64,000 bases of DNA from Hexactinellida sp. DTS-2022. Taxonomy: Eukaryota; Porifera; Hexactinellida. Location: assembly GCA_028753945.1 (NCBI GenBank), contig JAPNXP010000013.1, forward strand, positions 124,001 through 188,000, read 5' to 3'. Both the position numbers and the translations under genes were made by a program. Below the pieces are notes generated by a model. The model worked only from the letters and a program-made list of their open reading frames with translations. It had not been told where the DNA came from and searched no databases. Positions 6,385 through 48,711 of the stretch are shown piece after piece. How positions within the stretch are numbered: position 1 is the first letter of the stretch; every line of letters starts with the position of its first letter.

Positions 6385-7317
6385 TCACAGGAAGTAGTCC
6401 GGAATGCGTCTGGTCACGAGCGGCTCTCCGCGTCTGGGGGCGGGGTCGAACTGCAGAAACGTGTACTTGAGGATGTCGTCTAATTCCATCAGTGCAGCTT
6501 GGTTGCCACAGCGGTAGCAGTAGTTGGGAGCGGAGAATATGGTGACGACATGTTTCTCGTGGCACCAGTTGTACCCCTCCATGACCAGCTGGTGAGCGCG
6601 GGATATCAAGGTCAGCGCGTTGTTGTGGTTGAAGTTCTCGGAGATGTCCTGTCCGAAGGTGTACCCCGCCCCCCTGGGGGATATGCCCCACCCACACCGG
6701 TCGTCTGGGTCGCTCCAGAGGAGGTCGCACATGGGACCCTCGTGTGGCACCTCTTGCAGACGGTCCAGGCTACGAATGTGGTCCAGAGTGTCGATAGAGG
6801 GGGAGAGACCCCCGTGCAGACAGAATATCTGACTCTCCACCAGGGCTGTCAGAGGCAGGTAGTCGAACAGATCTGTGAAATACTTCCACACATTCGGGTT
6901 TCCGTACTTCCTGAGACACTCGTCATAGAACCCATACACCTGGGTTATCTGACGGGACTCGTGGTTCCCTCGCAGAAGGGTGACGCGGTGAGGGAATCTG
7001 GTCTTCAGAGAAACCAGCAGACTGGCAGTCTCCACCGAGTAGTAGCCGCGATCCACGTAGTCCCCCATGAAGAGGTAGTTTGTGTTGGGACTGTCCCCCC
7101 CTATGCGGAACAGCTCCATCAGGTCGTAGAACTGTCCGTGCACATCTCCACACACCGTCACGGGACACTTGAGCTCCTGCACTGTGGACTCTTTCGAGAG
7201 AATCTCCTTTGCTTTCTCGCAGAGAGTTTTGACGTCGTTCTCATCCAAGAACTGACAATTGTTCAGTTTCTCAATCCATGAGTCTAGCGTTCCTGCCCAA
7301 ACACGGTCTTCTACCAT
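6385..7317 (-). CDS. PPP2CA: Serine/threonine protein phosphatase 2A catalytic subunit, copy 1 (intact)
   Basis: Single exon, 310 residues (human 309). All metal-binding motifs of the PPP phosphatases are present: GDVHGQ, GDYVDRG and RGNHES, then LHGGLSP and [12 protein letters not shown]. The C-terminus is TRRIPDYFL, so the Tyr-Phe-Leu end used for carboxyl methylation (Leu309) and holoenzyme assembly is kept. The position of human Thr304, a phosphosite, is isoleucine. The ATG at 7317 gives the expected N-terminal length. A second copy lies 3.1 kb upstream (10406-11365); the two are almost identical in DNA over about 520 bp of the middle but diverge at both ends, which suggests gene conversion. 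The MULE transposon lies between them. Confidence 0.95.
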
Positions 7318-7667: not shown

Positions 7668-7717
7668 TCATAAGAAATACCCATGCCTTGGTTTAGTGGC
7701 TAATTGGTCTTTGCTCC
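7668..7717 (-). pseudogene. Stranded C-terminal codons of PP2A catalytic copy 2
   Basis: Read on the minus strand directly after the downstream target-site duplication, these bases encode SKDQLATKPRHGYFL followed by a TGA stop (7670-7668). They align residue for residue and at equal length with the end of copy 1 ([14 protein letters not shown]). Removing the transposon plus one 9-bp duplication joins them in frame to the copy 2 coding region. This fragment is therefore the original 3' end of copy 2, separated from its gene by the element. No start or promoter of its own is visible. Confidence 0.88.
7709..7717. repeat. Target-site duplication, left copy (CTTTGCTCC)
   Basis: A 9-bp direct repeat flanks the MULE exactly; the second copy is at 10480-10488. 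Nine bases is the usual duplication length for Mutator-like elements. It lies within PP2A coding sequence (Arg-Ser-Lys codons on the minus strand). Confidence 0.93.
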
Positions 7718-7860
7718 GGGTATAGGTCACTTCGTACCCAACACCCTTTCGTACCTTTATCACGACAACTTCGTACCCAATACTCTTTCGTACTCAACAC
7801 TCTTTCGTACCCAATACTCTTTCGTACTCAACACTTTTTCGTACCCGATACTATTCCATA
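7718..7860. repeat. MULE left terminal inverted repeat with subterminal tandem units
   Basis: Seven or so units built on TTCGTACCCAA / TTCGTACTCAACACT follow one another at 15 to 20 bp spacing. They are probable transposase binding sites, as subterminal repeats are in other MULEs (inference). The same motif appears inverted at the right end. Confidence 0.85.
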
Positions 7861-7969
7861 CTTGACATTACTACATCTAGGTATAAAGAAAGTTTAATTA
7901 TTAATAGTGTACTTCTAAATCTAAATCACTAAATTTCCTATCAAAGTCAAGTTAGTCAACACTGCACAT

Positions 7970-10080
7970 TTATCCTGAAACAGGCCCGTTCAAATGGCCA
8001 ACTGCTCTTAGTAATTGGGACGTGGAGATCTCGTTGTCCTGATAGCGTCGCCAAATTTCAAATATCTTTCCCTGTAGTTTTCTGTGTTGTGTCCGTTGAT
8101 GTCGCCGCAGTTTCCTTTCTGAAATTAGCCGAAGATGGAGTCTCACAGTTCTCGACTCGGAGTATAGAAGTGGGATTAAAACATACAGCTGCAGATTTCC
8201 TTTATCTGCAGCTTTGGAGTTCAATCGACGGTGGTAACCTTCTAAATCATTGTTCGTTCTTATGCTCTGCATGAATACGCACCAGTTTGAAGGTTTAAAC
8301 ACCGTTGAAAGAATCCATGTGTTCTCTACATACTGGACTAGGGGCTGCATATGTGTTGTGGCTTGTTCCTTAAGTGTATTGAACACAGGGATTATTTGTT
8401 CTTCTGGAAGAAATGGAAGGGCCATCAACTTCCTTACATAGTTGTACGTTGTGCCCTTCTCATTGTATGCTACCTGAAAAATTTGTAACAGTCAAAACGT
8501 CTACGATATCGATATATAACATATAAAGTAATTATCTACATACCTGGAAACCAAGTTGTTGCACATGCCGCCATATTGCTTGTCGCCAGTGAAAAACACA
8601 TCCTTGTATCTCCACCTGAAATAATGTCTCTCTGACTCCTTTCCAAATTGCTGCTTCGAAATCTGTGACCACTTTTGTTACAGCAATCGTATCTGGTAGT
8701 TTATCCAATATAGCTACTATTACCTGCAAGATAAATAAATAATAATAATAAGAACATATCTGCACATCTTACATACCTTCTCATAATCTACTGCTCTCCT
8801 CTGTGACATCAATGCATATGCTAGTGGAACTTGTTTGATATGCCCGTCTTTACTGATGAAGCCATGTATGCTAAATAGCTGATAAAAGGGTTTTTTGACC
8901 AACTTGAAGGTTCCATCCATGTACCATGTTTTGCATCTAGCTAATAGTTGAAGCTGTTTGTTAGTAGCAAATACAAGGTGTCTTGATGTTGTGCTTTGGA
9001 TATCAGATATAAGAAAGTTTTCTGGTAAGTATTCTTCAGCTAATGTAAAATCTACATTTCTGGGTTCTTCGGGACGCTTAGATTGTCTCAGTCTGTTTGC
9101 TGCCCTTGTAAGGTTCTCAATATCAGGGCGGCATGGTTCAGGAGCATCGTCTGGCAAATCCATCATGGCATTTTCGATCAATCCAGCAGCAGAAGTGAAG
9201 ATCTGTTCACATGCATGTCGTTTAACCTAAAAATGTGCAGGAATGTTTATATATTAGTAATAGTATTTATCCTTAATTAATTATTTAACTCTTACATCAT
9301 ACTACATACCTTTGCAATTGTATCAATTCTAAGATGTAATCCAGGCTCTCCTTGATGGCAGTGTTTGCACCGTCCACGTTTGAAGTTTCCTCCCTTCTGA
9401 ATTACTGTAGCTGGACAACGTGTGGACTTTCCTCTGATGTAGCAGCACCAGTACTGTGTTGCTTTTCCTGGTGGAGTTTTCCTAGTATAAGAGAAACCAA
9501 CTGTGTCCACTAGTTTATCTCGCGCCCGGGTAGTGCCACCAGTAATGATCGTATATCTCACGCTTACTTCTTCCATGGGGAAGTCAGAATCATCATTAAG
9601 TTCTTGAATGGAAGATTCATCTATTAGTAGTGGTACTGTGTAGGAATTATCGACATTGAATGACGAATTATCATTTGTAGTGTCCATATTATTATTGTTG
9701 TGTGATTGTAAGGAGGAACTCTCAACAACAGTAGAGTCATCCATTGGTTCGGGCTGATCATAATCATAATCAGTTGTCTGGTCCAGGGAGATACCAGGGA
9801 TTTGTAGCAAGTCCAGATGAGTGCTTTCTGCAGCTGGGAAACTGAAATTTAACATATCATCAGGCAATAGAGGAGGTGCTGCTGGAATAATATCTATGAT
9901 TTGACATGAGTTACAAGTCCACTGATATTCAATCTCCCCTTTTACCAGCCTTCTATAGAATGCGCGGTCTATAGGTATATCGCACACTCTATGCTGCCAT
10001 CTTTCACACCCTCCTTCACACATCAGTGCTTCCTGCGTTTCTTTGACAATTTTCTTGCATACGATGCATAGGTCACTCAT
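7970..10080 (-). CDS. MULE transposase with PHD finger and FLYWCH-type zinc finger, four exons
   Basis: Exons 10080-9310, 9226-8777, 8723-8544 and 8473-7970, with three short phase-0 introns (83, 53 and 70 bp), encode about 634 residues. The N-terminus is a PHD finger with all eight ligands in C4-H-C3 order (CIVC, CEGGC, WQHRVC, WTCNSC). An acidic, Ser/Asp/Asn-rich linker follows, then a FLYWCH/WRKY-like zinc domain (about residues 195-245: FSYTRKTPPGKATQYWCCYIRG, CPATVI, CKHCHQGEPGLH). The MULE DDE catalytic core is complete: WYMDGTFK (first Asp), VVTDFEAAIW (second Asp), CVFHWRQAIW (the C/H motif) and TNNDLEGYHRRLN (Glu). No disabling mutation was seen, so the element may still be active. 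Introns and phase were placed by hand from GT/AG sites. Confidence 0.87.
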
Positions 10081-10334
10081 AATTATTGATTAAGAGTATT
10101 TAAAACAGTATTTATACTCAAACATTTGTTTCGTCGACAAACCTGAGAAGGGCACTTTTTTCGTGAAGACATAAACAACCGATCACTGCATTTATAACAC
10201 TTGTAATTATATACCAAAAACAACTGAGCACTGCATTAATAACACTTATAATTATATTTCAAAAACAATTAGCCATTAGACAAAACAAATTCGTATCACA
10301 AAGTCACTTTGGTCACATTAAATAATATATGTTA

Positions 10335-10479
10335 ACATTGGGTACGAAATTATGTTGGGTACGAAATTATTTTGGGTACGAAATTATGTTGGGTACGAAA
10401 TTGTGTTAGGTACGAAATTGCAATTTAGTGCGAAATGGCAGGAGTACGAAATTGTTTAGTAGCGAAATGACTTGTATTC
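10335..10479. repeat. MULE right terminal inverted repeat with subterminal tandem units
   Basis: Units of TGGGTACGAAATTATGT type repeat four to five times, then become irregular (AGTGCGAAATGGCAGG) towards the end at 10479. They are the inverted counterparts of the left-end units. Codons 297 onward of the present PP2A copy 2 frame are read from this repeat. Confidence 0.85.
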
Positions 10480-11365
10480 CTTTGCTCCTGGGGGCTGGAA
10501 TGAACTGTATGATCTTGTAATTGAGTTGTTCGTCTAATTCCATGAAGGCAGCTTGGTTGCCACAGCGGTAACAATAGTTGGGCGCACTGAATATGGTAAT
10601 CAGCTGTTTCTCATGATCCCAGTTGTACCCCTCCATGATCATCTGATGAGCGCGGGATATGAGAGTCAAGTTGTTCCTGTGAAGGAATTCCTCAGTAATG
10701 TCCTGGCCAAATGTATAACTAGCAGTTGCACGGGATATGCCCCACCCACACTGGTCTTCTGGGTCGCTCCAGAGGAGGTCGCACATGGGACCCTCGTGAG
10801 GCACCTCTTGCAGACGGTCCAGGCTACGAATGTGGTCCAGAGTGTCGATAGAGGGGGAGAGACCCCCGTGCAGACAGAATATCTGACTCTCCACCAGAGC
10901 CGTCAGAGGCAGGTAGTCGAACAGATCTGTGAAATACTTCCACACATTCGGGTTTCCGTACTTCCTGAGACACTCGTCATAGAACCCATACACCTGGGTT
11001 ATCTGACGGGACTCGTGGTTCCCTCGCAGAAGGGTGACCCGGTGAGGGAATCTGGTCTTCAGAGAAACCAGCAGACTGGCAGTCTCCACCGAGTAGTAGC
11101 CGCGATCCACGTAGTCCCCCATGAAGAGGTAGTTTGTGTTGGGACTGTCCCCCCCTATGCGGAACAGCTCCATCAGGTCGTAGAACTGTCCGTGCACATC
11201 TCCACACACCGTCACGGGACACTTGAGCTCCTGCACTGTGGACTCTTTGGAGAGAATCTCCTTTGCCTTCTCGCAGAGGGTTTTGACATTTTTCTCTTCA
11301 AAAGGCTGGCACTTAGATAGCTTTTCTATCCATGCATCCAAAATAGATACACTAATGTCGGCCAT
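10406..11365 (-). CDS. PP2A catalytic subunit, copy 2, C-terminus replaced by transposon-derived residues
   Basis: The frame opens at an ATG (11365, [16 protein letters not shown]) and carries all PPP catalytic motifs ([38 protein letters not shown]). It matches PP2A up to APRSK. After that the MULE end begins, and the frame reads 24 foreign residues ([16 protein letters not shown] and on) to a stop at 10406, for 319 residues in total. The native tail ending in Tyr-Phe-Leu is 2.8 kb away at 7668-7717. If made, the protein should keep a catalytic core but lack the carboxyl-methylated leucine needed for normal B-subunit assembly (known for PP2A). The last third before the insertion differs from copy 1 ([28 protein letters not shown]), so the copy had already diverged there. 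Loss of a polyadenylation signal is likely but cannot be judged. Confidence 0.88.
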
Positions 11366-41362: not shown

Positions 41363-42681
41363 ATGTCTCAACTGTCTAAGAAAACTCCCTTCCTTACCGC
41401 CATATGGTTAGTTGTCAGTTCGTATTCTACGCGTGTGTCTGACTTTCTCCCTATAGGGTACTTTATTGGTGCTTGGCATCAGTACACTGTTTCCCCAAAG
41501 AGTACAGAGCTGAAGTATCGAGAATTAGCTCTCTGAGATCTCAGATTGTATCGAGCTTTGACCAATTGGTTGTTCAGCTGGAAATGAGAAAAAATGAACT
41601 AATGGAAGAATTGGATGTGATAGAATACGAACTCTTGAGGGAACAAGAAGAAACAGATAAGTTTATTCGTATATTGGAAGACGGACATGAATACTCCCGA
41701 GTTAATCACCATCAGAGTGAATTTGTGACTTCTATTAAGAATCAACACATTACCGACACTGAACATAAGATAAAAGAACTCAAATACCATAAAAACAAGT
41801 CTGTTGTTGTGTTTATTTGGGATGATGGAATATTTCAAGATTTGAACAAACTAAGTAAAATTATTTTGAAAGATAAGATCCCTTATCACGAGAAGATACA
41901 CCCAGTTATTCAAACGAGTCATTATGGCAGTAAGATTGGAGAAATCAAACCTCGTGGCATTGCCATTGATCCTAAGTCTAATAACATATTCATAGCGGAT
42001 CATTATAATGAGCGAATTCAGGTTTTTGACCCTAATGGAAAATATTTGTATAAGTTTGGGGAGAGTAGACCAGGTAAGATCAATTCACCTATTGGTATAG
42101 CTATATATGGCGATAAGGTGTATGCGAGTCTTTATGAGAAACAAATAAATATTTATAATTTGGAAGGAGACTACATTAATAAGTTTGGTAACCCTAATTC
42201 CGATCCCAGAGGAATAGCTATATCTGAGATAAATGGAGATATCTATGTATGCAACTACGATAATAATAATATTCTAGTCTACTCTAAAGATCTCAGCTAT
42301 AAAACTAGTTTCGGAAAAGACAACTTAAGCTACCCACGATATATAGAACTGACTCAAGATAGGATATATATCCTGGATGAAGGGAACCCCTGTATGCACA
42401 TATTCAACAGAGATCACAGCTATTCTCATAGCATTGTGAGTAGCGGGATACATGAAGCAGTTGAACAAAGTTTTTTCTTTACCTTAGATATAGAAGAAAA
42501 CATCTTGATAACAGATTTTAATAGAAACTTAATCAGTGTATTTAGCAATGAAGGTGCTCTGATACATCAAATCAGGGTAGGAATTGAATACTTCCATAGG
42601 CCGTTTGGAATTGCAATAGACAGAATTAATAGGATCGTAGTAGCGACTGATGGGCAAAAAGGAAATCTAAAAATATTCTAG
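41363..42681 (+). CDS. Coiled-coil/NHL-repeat protein, tandem copy 1 (two exons)
   Basis: Exon 1, 41363-41406, encodes MSQLSKKTPFLTAI. A 50-bp intron (GTTAGT, ending CTGACTTTCTCCCTATAG with a branch-point-like CTGAC) is followed by exon 2, 41457-42681, for 422 residues. The N-terminal 120 residues are helical (LRSQIVSSFDQLVVQLEMRK; EELDVIEYELLREQEET). The rest forms NHL propeller blades (GEIKPRGIAIDPKSNNIFIAD; RIQVFDPNGKYLYKFGE; SDPRGIAISEINGDIYVCNY; HRPFGIAIDRINRIVVATD). The layout is that of TRIM-NHL proteins without RING and B-box. Function unknown; NHL propellers bind RNA or protein. It is nearly identical to the next two genes. Confidence 0.8.
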
Positions 42682-42950
42682 CTACAGAGTAACACTCTTG
42701 TTGTTTGTTTTTGAATTTTGAATTTTAACTTAATTTAGTTGTAATTATATATATTGTTTAGATATTTTTAATTTGTTTTATTAAAGCGGTACTAGGGCCA
42801 TTAATTGTCCACAACTTGTATTTGATCAGAGAGTCAAATGTAGTTATGTCCCATATCAGTTCAAATCAGTATATTAGCTTCATATGCGTTATGTAAGTGT
42901 GTTGTTGCTATAATTAGCTTTTGCTAGCAGAGAAGTACGTCTGTGAATTT

Positions 42951-44278
42951 ATGTCTCAACTGTCTAGGAAAACTCCCTTCCTTACCGCCATATGGTTAGT
43001 TGTCAGTTCTTATTCTACGCGTGTGTCTGACTTTCTCCCTATAGGGTACTTTATTGGTGCTTGGCATCAGTACACTGTTTCCCCAAAGAGTACAGAGCTG
43101 ATGTATCGAGAATTAGCTCTCTGAGATTTCAGATTGTATCGAGCTTTGACCAATTGTTTGTTCAGCTGGAAATGAGAAAAAATGAACTAATGGAAGAATT
43201 GGATGTGATAGAATACGAACTCTTGAGGGAACAAGAAGAAACAGATAAGTTTATTCGTATATTGGAAGACGGACATGAGTACTCCCGAGTTAATCACCAT
43301 CAGAGTGAATTTGTGACTTCTATTAAGAGTCAACACATTAATTATACTGAACATAAGTTAAAAGAACTCAAATACCATAGGAGCAAGTCTATTGTTGTGT
43401 TTATTTGGGATGATGGAATATTTCAGGATTTGAAGAACTTCAGTAAGATTATTTTGAAAGATAAGATTCCGTACCACGAGAAGATACACCCAGTTATTCA
43501 AACGGGTCGGTATGGCAGTTGGATCGGAGAAATCAAACCTCGTGGCATTGCCATTGATCCTAAGTCTAATAACATATTCATAGCGGATTTCGGTAATTCC
43601 CGAATTCAGGTGTTTGGCCCTAATGGCAATTATTTGTATAAGTTTGGGGATATTGAACCATGTAAGGCCAATTTACCTGTTGGTATAGCTATATATGACG
43701 ATAGGGTGTATGTGAGTCTTTTTAAGAAACAAATAAATATTTATACTTCGGAAGGGGACTACATTAATCAGTTTGGTAATACAGGAGGTGAGTTAGAGAT
43801 TACTTCTGATCCCAAGGGAATAGCTATATCCGAGATAAATGGAGATATCTATGTATGCAACTACGATAAAAATAATATTCTAGTCTACTCTAAAGATCTC
43901 AGTTATAAAACTAGTTTCGGAAAAGGTATATTAAACTTACCACGAGATATAGAATTCACTCGAGAAAGGATATATGTCCTGGATTTAGGAAACCCTTGCA
44001 TCCACATATTCAACAGAGATCACAGCTATTCTCATAGCATCAAGACAAAAAATAGAAGCGATACAATTGATTTCTTTACCTTAGATATAGAAGAAAACAT
44101 CTTAATAACCAATTATCCCACAAACATAATCAGTGTATTTAGCAATGAAGGTGCTCTGATACATCAGATCGGGGGAGAAATTGAATACTTCCATAGGCCG
44201 TTTGGAATTGCAATAGACAGAATGAATAGGATCGTAGTAGCGGCTGATGAGCAAAAAGGAAATTTAAAAATATTCTAG
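42951..44278 (+). CDS. Coiled-coil/NHL-repeat protein, tandem copy 2 (two exons)
   Basis: Exons 42951-42994 and 43045-44278 (50-bp intron, same junctions as copy 1) give 425 residues. The N-terminal coiled coil is almost unchanged from copy 1. The propeller has diverged more: IADFGNSRIQVFGPNGNYLYKF; a four-codon insertion TGGELEIT-like before SDPKGIAIS; LNLPRDIEFTRERIYVLD; KTKNRSDTIDFFTLD. Blade ends GGEIEYFHRPFGIAIDRMN are conserved. The pattern, with a conserved helix and variable propeller loops, suggests that the ligand-facing surface is what changes between copies. Confidence 0.8.
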
Positions 44279-44539
44279 TTGCAGAGTAACACTCTTGTTG
44301 TTTGTTATAAATTTTGAATTTAACTTAATTTAGTTGTAATTATATTGTTTAGATGTTTTTAATTTGTTTTATTAAAGCGGTACTAGCGCCATTAATTGCC
44401 CACAACTTGTATTTGAACAGAGAATCAAATGTAGTTATGTCCCAACAGTTCAAATCAGTTTATTAGCTTCATATGCGTTATGTAAGTTTGTTGTTGCTAT
44501 AATTAGCTTTTTGCTAGCAAAGAAGTACGTCTATGAATT

Positions 44540-45864
44540 ATGACTCAACTGTCTAGGAAAACTCCCTTCCTTGCCGCCATATGGTTAGTTGTCAGTTCTT
44601 ATTCTACGCGTGTGTCTGACTTTCTCCCTATAGGGTACTTTATTGGTGCTTGGCATCAGTACACTGTTTCCCCAAAGAGTACAGAGCTGATGTATCGAGA
44701 ATTAGCTCTCTGAGATCTCAGATTGTATCGAGCTTTGACCAATTGGTTGTTCAGCTGGAAATGAGAAAAAATGAACTAATGGAAGAATTGGATGTGATAG
44801 AATACGAACTCTTGAGGGAACAAGAAGAAACAGATAAGTTTATTCGTATATTGGAAGACGGACATGAGTACTCCCGAGTTAATCACCATCAGAGTGAATT
44901 TGTGACTTCTATTAAGAATCAACACATTACCGACACTGAACATAAGATAAAAGAACTCAAATACCATAAAAACAAGTCTGTTGTTGTGTTTATTTGGGAT
45001 GATGGAATATTTCAAGATTTGAACAAACTAAGTAAAATTATCTTGAAAGATAAGATCCCTTATCACGAGAAGATACACCCAGTTATTCAAACTAGTCAGT
45101 ATGGCAATAGAATCGGAGAAATCAAACCTCGTGGCATTGCCATTGATCCTAAGTCTAATAACATATTCATAGCGGATCATTATAATCACCGAATTCAAGT
45201 GTTTGACCCTAATGGCAAATATTTGTATAAGTTTGGGGATATTTCGGGGACACCAGGTAAAGTCAGTTACCCAGGTTGTATAGCTATATATGGCGATAAG
45301 GTGTTTGTGAGTCTTTATCAGAAATACGTGAATATTTATAATTTGGAAGGGGACTACATTAATAAGTTTGGTAACCCTAATTCCGATCCCAGAGGAATAG
45401 CTATATCCGAGATAAATGGAGATATCTATGTATGCAACTACGATAATAATACTATTCTAGTCTACTCTAAAGATCTCAGCTATAAAACTAGTTTCAGAAA
45501 AGACAAATTAAGCTACCCACGATATATAGAACTGACTCGAGATAGGATATATGTCCTGGATGAAGGGAACCCCTGTATGCACATATTCAACAGAGATCAC
45601 AGCTATTCTCATAGCATTGTGAGTAGAGGGAAACACGAAGCAGTTGAACACAGTTGTTTCTTTACCTTAGATATAGAAGAAAACATCTTGATAACCGATT
45701 TTAATAGAAACTTAATCAGTGTATTTAGCAATGAAGGTGCTCTGATACATCAGATCGGGGAAGGAACAAAATACTTCGATAAGCCATATGGAATCGCAAT
45801 AGACAGAATGAATAGGATTCTCGTAGCAGATCATAGGCTAGAAGGAAATCTAAAAATATTCTAG
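44540..45864 (+). CDS. Coiled-coil/NHL-repeat protein, tandem copy 3 (two exons)
   Basis: Exons 44540-44583 and 44634-45864 give 424 residues. Here one base is missing just before the start codon (GAATTATGACTC against GAATTTATGTCTC), which breaks any frame running in from upstream but leaves the ATG and exon 1 intact. This supports the chosen ATG in all three copies. The coiled coil is identical to copy 1 over long stretches. The propeller differs at loops (GDISGTPGKVSYPGCIAIYG; GEGTKYFDKPYGIAIDRMN; VADHRLEGNLKIF). Copies 1 and 3 share more propeller sequence with each other than with copy 2. Confidence 0.8.
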
Positions 45865-46901: not shown

Positions 46902-47421
46902 AACTTGGCCATCAACTAGAGAGTGTTAGTGTATTAGTGAACTTGTTAGATTGTCCTAATGGAAATGAATGGACTTCGTTATGAATATGTCAACGTGCTC
47001 TTATAAGTTGTTCAAGCATTTTCAATTCTATAATTTTTGATTATGCTCGCACAACTCATGTAACAGTAATTATTTGAACTAATTTATCAAAATAGATATC
47101 AACATTTGAAGTTTGAATATTTTGAATAAGTTTCTTCTAGAAATGGAATCAGAAAGTGTATAAAAGATATATTTCGGATGTACGTACACAATATATCATT
47201 GAAAATAACTGAATCATATAATGAACTCTATCGTCAGTGTAACAGATATATGGCAGGCATCGTATTTATTATACACTGTGATATATTTAGAAACTGTATC
47301 CATAATGTTTACGTATTATTTCAGGCCAAAGTACTTTGTTTTTGATATAAATACCACTGGAAATAGTAGAATATATAAACACAAATAATATAATTATTTA
47401 ATCAAATAAATAATAATAATA
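46902..47421. other. Intergenic DNA, nothing recognised
   Basis: Very AT-rich. Contains the 3' end of PSMA4 and the 5' region of the fourth NHL gene. No element ends or open frames of interest. Confidence 0.55.
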
Positions 47422-48711
47422 ATGGAAGCTCATAAAAATTTCAGCTTTAAGAATCAATTGAACTACACGAGAGATGCGATTTCAGAATCTTTCGACAGAC
47501 TTAACAGAGATATAGAGAGGAGGAGAGAGTACCTTTTGGAGAAACTCGATGAGTTGGAAGAGAACTACGAATTGATATATGGGCCTGAAAGCAACAACCT
47601 AGCCGATCTGTCGAAAATAAAACGACAGATAAGCGAGTCGATAAAGGGCAACAGCATGCAGGAATTCAAAGACCAACAAATCAGTGATATTAATAATAAA
47701 ATGGAGGAACTGAGAAAGAAGATGGAGATTGAAATTAAGCTCTGTTGGAAGGAATATCTGTTCGATTCCTTCACGCAGATTCTTGACCAGATCAACATAG
47801 AAGTAATTGTCTTAGAGCGGGATAATGAGACCGAATCTTCTATCTATTTCAAATCCAGCTGTGACACAACTATGTCACCAATACTTAACCCGCCATCCAA
47901 GTTAACACAACTTAAGCCATACGCCACTGCTTGCATTAAAGGCAGCAAACCTGGAGAACTGAGCAACCCACGAGGAGTAGCAGTAGACGACTCAACAGAG
48001 AGGATATACATAGCGGACCATGGGAATAGTAGGCTCCAGGTATTCAACTATGAGGGCGAATATATTTCCCAGTTCAGCGAGTCGAAAGCAGACAAGCCAT
48101 ACGGAGTAGCGCTATACGAGAACTCACTGTTCGTAACAATGGAAGGTACAAACAGTGTTTGTAAGTTTAGTTTAGAAGGGAAACTACTGGTGAAGAAAGG
48201 AGGCAAATTTAGCGATAAATTTAGAAGTCCATACGGAATAACGGTCGGGCCTAACGGCATAGTGTACCTGTGTGATTACGGGAACAATAGGGTTAAAGGG
48301 TTAACAACCGCTCTAAAGTATTCCTGTACAATTGGCAAAGGTATGTTGGACGGGCCAATGGATGTAAAGACTAATGGGAACGAGGAAATACTTGTGCTAG
48401 ACAGCAGTAAGGAATGTATGCACGTGTTTAACTTCGGAGGAGAACTGCTTAGAAGTATGCTCACGCGGGGTGTAGTTAACCAGTTGAGCAATCCATGGTT
48501 TTTCAGCGTAGGCTGTAGCGGAATGGTGTTTATGACAGATTCGAGTAAGAGCGTTATCAACATGTTCTCAGCCGACGGAGATCTCGTGAATACGATTGGT
48601 GGGAGTGGGGGAGGCGCAGAATTCGTGTTTCCAACTGGAATAGCTGTTCGGAGCGGAAATAAGCCAGTCTGTGTATTCAATAAGAAAAGCGCGCTTTTGC
48701 AAATATTTTAA
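47422..48711 (+). CDS. Coiled-coil/NHL-repeat protein, divergent fourth member
   Basis: 429 residues, single exon, starting at an ATG directly after a TAATAATAATA string. The N-terminus is helical (LNYTRDAISESFDRLNRDIE; EYLLEKLDELEENYEL), aligning with the start of exon 2 of the tandem copies. NHL blades follow: KPGELSNPRGVAVDDSTERIYIAD, SRLQVFNYEGEYISQFSE, FRSPYGITVGPNGIVYLCDY, MLDGPMDVKTNGNEEILVLD, NPWFFSVGCSGMVFMTDSS, GGGAEFVFPTGIAV. It is clearly of the same family but lacks the short first exon and intron of the tandem copies and is far more diverged, so it is an older duplicate. Function unknown. Confidence 0.83.
   Translation: MEAHKNFSFKNQLNYTRDAISESFDRLNRDIERRREYLLEKLDELEENYELIYGPESNNLADLSKIKRQISESIKGNSMQEFKDQQISDINNKMEELRKKMEIEIKLCWKEYLFDSFTQILDQINIEVIVLERDNETESSIYFKSSCDTTMSPILNPPSKLTQLKPYATACIKGSKPGELSNPRGVAVDDSTERIYIADHGNSRLQVFNYEGEYISQFSESKADKPYGVALYENSLFVTMEGTNSVCKFSLEGKLLVKKGGKFSDKFRSPYGITVGPNGIVYLCDYGNNRVKGLTTALKYSCTIGKGMLDGPMDVKTNGNEEILVLDSSKECMHVFNFGGELLRSMLTRGVVNQLSNPWFFSVGCSGMVFMTDSSKSVINMFSADGDLVNTIGGSGGGAEFVFPTGIAVRSGNKPVCVFNKKSALLQIF

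Follow-up and report, generated by a model that had tools for sequence, protein, structure and literature searches.

How did a transposon come to lie within the last codons of a gene for a PP2A catalytic subunit, and what has become of the gene that received it? The question is raised by the window, as the whole 64,000-nucleotide stretch of hexactinellid DNA analyzed here is called, in which the second of two tandem PP2A catalytic genes (copy 2) runs into a MULE shortly before its stop codon. A sequence-only reading of the span 7668–11365, which is bounded by the stranded stop codon and the ATG, had proposed that an intact element separated the gene from its original C-terminus and left either a methylation-blind catalytic subunit or a dead gene.

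The Insertion Site and the Stranded C-Terminus

The insertion is described by the following features.

7718–10479, minus strand: MULE of 2,762 bp; the transposase strand is the PP2A strand, and near-full relatives with the same ends are found elsewhere
10480–10488: target site duplication, gene-proximal copy, 9 bp
7709–7717: target site duplication, far copy, 9 bp
10406–10480, minus strand: present hybrid tail of 24 residues and a stop, derived from the element end
7668–7708, minus strand: the former C-terminus, now stranded, DQLATKPRHGYFL with its stop; the first of these codons starts within the duplication

The 9-bp sequence CTTTGCTCC is present at 7709–7717 and 10480–10488 and absent elsewhere in the window, and the two repeats are exact and abut both ends of the element exactly. 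At least two matches of the repeat were found in 10 of 100 shuffles of the window, so that two 9-bp matches alone are not rare and the proof lies in the abutted ends, the in-frame join and the ends shared by the family. When the flanks are joined minus one repeat, the frame continues as ...PAPRSKDQLATKPRHGYFL-stop and ends in YFL, and the tail has 19 residues in the joined flanks of copy 2 as well as in copy 1. The bases from the stop codon onward are similar too (TGACATCAT in the joined flanks vs TGACGTCAT in copy 1). In the occupied state the frame reads PAPRSK followed by 24 residues of the element and a stop at 10408–10406, giving an open frame of 319 amino acids from ATG to stop. The flanking repeat, the frame broken at Ala-Pro-Arg-Ser-Lys with Tyr-Phe-Leu-stop stranded beyond, the 24 residues taken from the transposon end, the tail as long as that of copy 1 once the element and one duplication are deleted, and the in-frame join of the flanks were all part of the sequence-only reading and are borne out.

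A search for the empty site (27 bases, with up to 3 mismatches allowed) found nothing in the 112.4-Mb assembly, which consists of 18 contigs and holds a single sequence for the insertion place. Splicing out of the element, judged by eye only, is not favored. The insertion of a MULE in the last codons of PP2A copy 2 is confirmed as real and correct to the base.

The Element and Its Family

What kind of element is it? The parts recognized between the duplications are listed below; all splice sites were predicted by eye.

7718–7867: imperfect terminal inverted repeat composed of units resembling TTCGTACCCAACAC, with an approximate inner limit; inverted self-match of 79% over 84 bp
10330–10479: the imperfect terminal inverted repeat at the other end, its inner limit again approximate
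9310–10080, minus strand: predicted transposase exon 1, with PHD-finger-like and weak FLYWCH-like stretches
8777–9226, minus strand: predicted transposase exon 2, with YMDGTF
8544–8723, minus strand: predicted transposase exon 3, with VTDFEAA and the CxxH in GCVFHW
7970–8473, minus strand: predicted transposase exon 4 and stop, with NNDLEGYH

Removal of three small introns (83, 53 and 70 bp; GT...AG) yields a predicted transposase of 634 residues without an inner stop, in agreement with the earlier description of the MULE as intact. Its MULE domain (PF10551) scores 39.8 bits against a cut-off of 27.6 (E 6.2e-10). We take YMDGTF in exon 2 and VTDFEAA in exon 3 to hold the first and second catalytic Asp, GCVFHW in exon 3 to be the CxxH motif and NNDLEGYH in exon 4 to hold the catalytic Glu. 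The PHD finger (PF00628) reaches 20.2 bits (E 6e-4) in the whole transposase and 23.6 bits (E 5.4e-5) in exon 1 alone, just below the curated cut-off of 24. The terminal inverted repeats are imperfect and about 150 bp long, with short tandem units at both ends; such repeats are present in many MULEs, though not in all.

The element belongs to the MULE superfamily and is of a known kind. With this superfamily it shares the transposase domain above cut-off, the 9-bp duplications and inverted ends made of short tandem units, and it differs in no feature tested. The duplication of 9 bp lies within the 8–11 bp that PMC6446971 gives for MULEs. The same paper describes Rehavkus elements, reported there from arthropods and annelids, as PHD-finger relatives or members of the MULEs that have a 9-bp duplication and a minisatellite preceding the 3′ inverted repeat. 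Compared with this description, the element shares the 9-bp duplication and inverted repeats in the range of 26–400 bp; its PHD-like match falls just below the Pfam cut-off, and short tandem units are found at both of its ends. FLYWCH occurs in some members of Phantom, and here the FLYWCH match is weak (16.1 bits, below the cut-off of 23.6). By its PHD-like match and 9-bp duplication, the family may stand near Rehavkus.

Other Copies and the Age of the Insertion

Four near-full copies were found elsewhere in the 112.4-Mb assembly (C4, and C1 at 7.58, 9.10 and 6.63 Mb). Relative to the copy in the window, C4 carries 5 substitutions in 2,761 positions (18 gap columns) and C1 7.58 Mb 5 in 2,721 (48 gap columns), while C1 9.10 Mb carries 84 in 2,682 (108 gap columns) and C1 6.63 Mb 64 in 2,742 (59 gap columns). 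The outermost bases are identical in all five copies except for one change 18 bases inside one end of C1 9.10 Mb. Inspected by eye, the flanks of C4 and C1 7.58 Mb carry the 9-bp duplication without a mismatch, and those of C1 9.10 and 6.63 Mb retain 8 of its 9 bases. The predicted transposase frame is open in two of the five copies (window and C1 9.10 Mb) and broken in the other three.

How old is the insertion? Within the youngest trio, three substitutions mark out the copy in the window (Poisson 95% range for a count of 3: 0.6 to 8.8). When all five copies are compared, two of the three are private (window positions 9350 and 9980), whereas the two older copies have the third as well. Since the nearest two copies differ by only 5 substitutions each, in addition to indels, and only 2 are private to the window copy, the insertion in PP2A copy 2 is judged from these counts to be very young. 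The best explanation is that the element is currently mobile or was so very recently.

Two copies of the element, L042 (1512–3557) and L044 (3026–5395), have themselves been struck by other MULE-like elements with 9-bp duplications, and the one within L042 has identical 40-bp ends and an open frame of 494 amino acids. Two further places on C11 (L048 779–813 and L049 788–822) agree with the element over its first 35 bp only and have a common right-hand flank; they are perhaps a different repeat with that end.

Landing Sites in Other MULE Genes

The other near-full copies show where else the element has landed. Joining the flanks at C4 gives a 440-residue FLYWCH/MULE transposase frame, and at C1 7.58 Mb an open frame of 540 residues in which MULE, RING and FLYWCH-like matches are found. 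C1 9.10 Mb has a FLYWCH-like start (19.5 bits, below cut-off) in its left flank and, in its right flank, a MULE domain above cut-off, with a joined frame of only 136 residues. No frame of at least 60 residues runs across the site at C1 6.63 Mb. Of the five near-full copies, three thus lie in other MULE transposase genes, one in a PP2A gene and one at a site with no long frame.

If such genes are assumed to make up 1.3 to 4% of the genome, a share guided by 961 first-look MULE candidates, the chance of finding at least three of five copies in MULE genes is 2e-5 to 6e-4. Such a distribution can be explained by survival in harmless sites without targeting. MULE transposase domains are abundant in this genome; 150 of the 961 first-look candidates were scored, and all 150 were above cut-off. 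L041, L042 and L043, other near-full copies of the element, belong to this observation, and a partial copy (L045 977) also adjoins a related transposase (46% identity, L045 974–753).

The PP2A Pair: Duplication, Conversion and Probable Selection

What was copy 2 before the element arrived? The two genes and their shared tract are arranged as follows.

10480–11365, minus strand: PP2A catalytic subunit copy 2, minus its last 13 codons; ATG at 11365; Metallophos E 3.5e-43
6385–7317, minus strand: PP2A catalytic subunit copy 1, open throughout, ending in RRIPDYFL
10732–11278, minus strand: tract of gene conversion in copy 2, spanning 547 nt, of which 8 differ from copy 1; approximate limits
6678–7224, minus strand: matching conversion tract in copy 1
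10727–10729, minus strand: Ala codon where the human protein has Arg214, just outside the conversion tract at its edge

Copy 1 lies just downstream of copy 2 on the same strand, and copy 2 aligns with human PP2A C-alpha (2ie4_C) over 288 residues without a gap (E 1.5e-165). Between the two copies dS is beyond correction (saturated) over the 29 codons at the 5′ end of the comparison and 1.25 over the 96 codons at its 3′ end, and falls to 0.054 in the 183 codons between. The score of the conversion tract, whose ends were set by one scoring rule (match 1, mismatch −8), was reached in none of 10,000 codon shuffles. The pair therefore consists of old duplicates, with silent sites near saturation outside the tract, that share a recent conversion tract of about 547 nt. 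By a rough clock the conversion would be many times older than the insertion, given a silent divergence of 0.054 between two lineages vs about 0.001 private to the element, so that the likely order of events is duplication, divergence, conversion of the core and insertion.

Selection seems to have acted outside the tract. In the 3′ part dN/dS relative to copy 1 is 0.21 (Fisher p 1.4e-8), and in the 5′ part replacement changes are also fewer per site than silent ones (Fisher p 1.4e-4); these are Nei-Gojobori pairwise estimates, with Fisher tests on rounded counts. There is no stop or frameshift ahead of the insertion. Since replacement changes are fewer than silent ones per site outside the tract, copy 2 was probably held by selection during part of its history and not free of it throughout. 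The pairwise value should understate the dN/dS of copy 2 itself, copy 1 being conserved. Residues 214–295 include 23 sites at which the copies differ; only copy 1 agrees with human at 16 of these, only copy 2 at none, and neither copy at 7.

A third PP2A C copy was considered and rejected, as among the 26 matches listed only the tandem pair reaches at least 85% over most of the length. The next-best match by score has 47% identity, and short exon matches of at most 70% lie at loci that look PP4- and PP6-like. L028 resembles an intron-split PP4, L033/L034, which are one place, a PP6 ending in TPYFL, and L031 a diverged PP4. Both PP2A copies are single open frames, and the PP4-like L028 and the PP6-like L033 are intron-split; the pair may derive from a retrocopy. 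Copy 1 ends (6385–6411) in RRIPDYFL with Ile at the position of human Thr304, the human PP2A C tail being RRTPDYFL.

In another part of the window (41443–45864), three closely similar tandem open frames are found, with a more distant one at 47410–48711. We take the three to encode coiled-coil/NHL-repeat-like proteins.

The Active Site of Copy 2

Would copy 2 be an active phosphatase even with its proper tail? Copy 2 shows PP2A-type sequence across the catalytic domain, and in the ungapped alignment with the human protein it keeps Asp57, His59, Asp85, Arg89, Asn117, His118, His167 and His241, among which we assume the metal ligands to lie. With the catalytic subunit PPP2CA (2ie4) it thus shares 288 gap-free residues including Arg89 and these positions. 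It differs in having Ala instead of Arg214 and in the replacement of the YFL tail by 24 transposon-derived residues; in addition, Gly215 is replaced by Thr. The Arg-Gly pair is kept in copy 1 and in the five phosphatase loci, out of nine examined, whose alignment covers the stretch (L023, L025, L028, L031 and L033). Arg214 is described as substrate-coordinating (PMC10765524) and as completely conserved (PMC11233601). Of the two phosphate-coordinating arginines, copy 2 retains only Arg89. As Ala stands in place of a phosphate-coordinating residue, copy 2 would probably be catalytically impaired whatever its tail.

The Lost Tail and Methylation

The C-terminal YFL carboxylate is absent from the occupied frame of copy 2 and present in the joined flanks. 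Could its loss matter? The genome encodes an LCMT1-like methyltransferase (PF04072; match to human LCMT1 3iei, E 2e-58), so that the leucine methylation pathway probably exists and a working subunit could be affected if it lost its terminal leucine. That the choice of B subunit depends on this leucine, as had been claimed at the outset, is disputed. According to PMC8630191, deletion of the terminal leucine in human cells reduces binding of B55, B56 and B72 and shifts the holoenzymes, but according to PMC11087950 trimers with B55-alpha and B56-epsilon form in vitro without methylation. The proposal of either a methylation-blind subunit or a dead gene needs to be weighted: with Arg214 replaced by Ala, the working subunit is not supported, and a dead gene, though unproven, is the more likely of the two.

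Weighing the Explanations

What, then, is the most plausible history of the locus? A MULE with a PHD-like finger has inserted itself near the very end of a tandem PP2A catalytic duplicate that had diverged and was probably already dispensable or catalytically weak. The insertion removes YFL-stop, adds 24 foreign residues and replaces the 3′ UTR with transposon, and the allele probably persists with copy 1 as the source of PP2A C. The best reading, and a probable one, is thus a null or nearly null (or neutral) allele of a duplicate that could be dispensed with, in view of the missing Arg214 and the replaced 3′ UTR. The intact copy 1 and the lack, among the matches listed, of a third locus that resembles the pair over its length count for it; the undecayed state of copy 2 before the insertion, with its low 3′ dN/dS, counts against it. 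The insertion is too young for the absence of decay to say anything for or against present function. It could be imagined instead that the hybrid works as a PP2A C-like enzyme with an unmethylatable tail and a shifted choice of B subunits. The open 319-residue frame, the retained residues with their presumed metal-ligand roles, and the LCMT1-like gene would agree with this, as would the shift of holoenzymes upon leucine deletion in human cells (PMC8630191). The absent Arg214 and the transposon in place of the 3′ UTR speak against it, as do the two trimers that need no methylation in vitro (PMC11087950), making a working hybrid an improbable outcome.

Alternatively, copy 2 may before the insertion have been a selected pseudophosphatase or decoy subunit, its core refreshed by conversion, which the MULE has just broken or altered. 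Such a history would fit a dN/dS below 1 on either side of the tract and the loss of an active-site residue in a protein whose core is nearly identical to copy 1. The pairwise dN/dS, however, includes the conserved lineage of copy 1, conversion may have run in either direction, and the comparison is made within one genome; this history is accordingly considered unlikely, if slightly less so than a working hybrid. Less credible than either is a disabled decoy that was selected with docking of A and B subunits kept via conversion, and that is now tail-less, methylation-blind and segregating in the population. That the assembly mis-joined the element into the gene can hardly be believed in view of the exact 9-bp duplication, the family-wide ends and the same architecture at other loci.

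Significance

Transposon insertions in exons are common, and this well-preserved MULE insertion is an event of an ordinary sort, new only in the gene it concerns and in the state of that gene. In a limited literature search on tail-replacing insertions, no published account of a comparable one was found. Such an event is rarely caught so young, with an exact reconstruction of the empty site, and in so conserved a tail. The host pair, in which a converted core adjoins a divergent C-terminal third without the active-site Arg, would let one ask, as in a natural experiment, whether selection can maintain a PP2A decoy.
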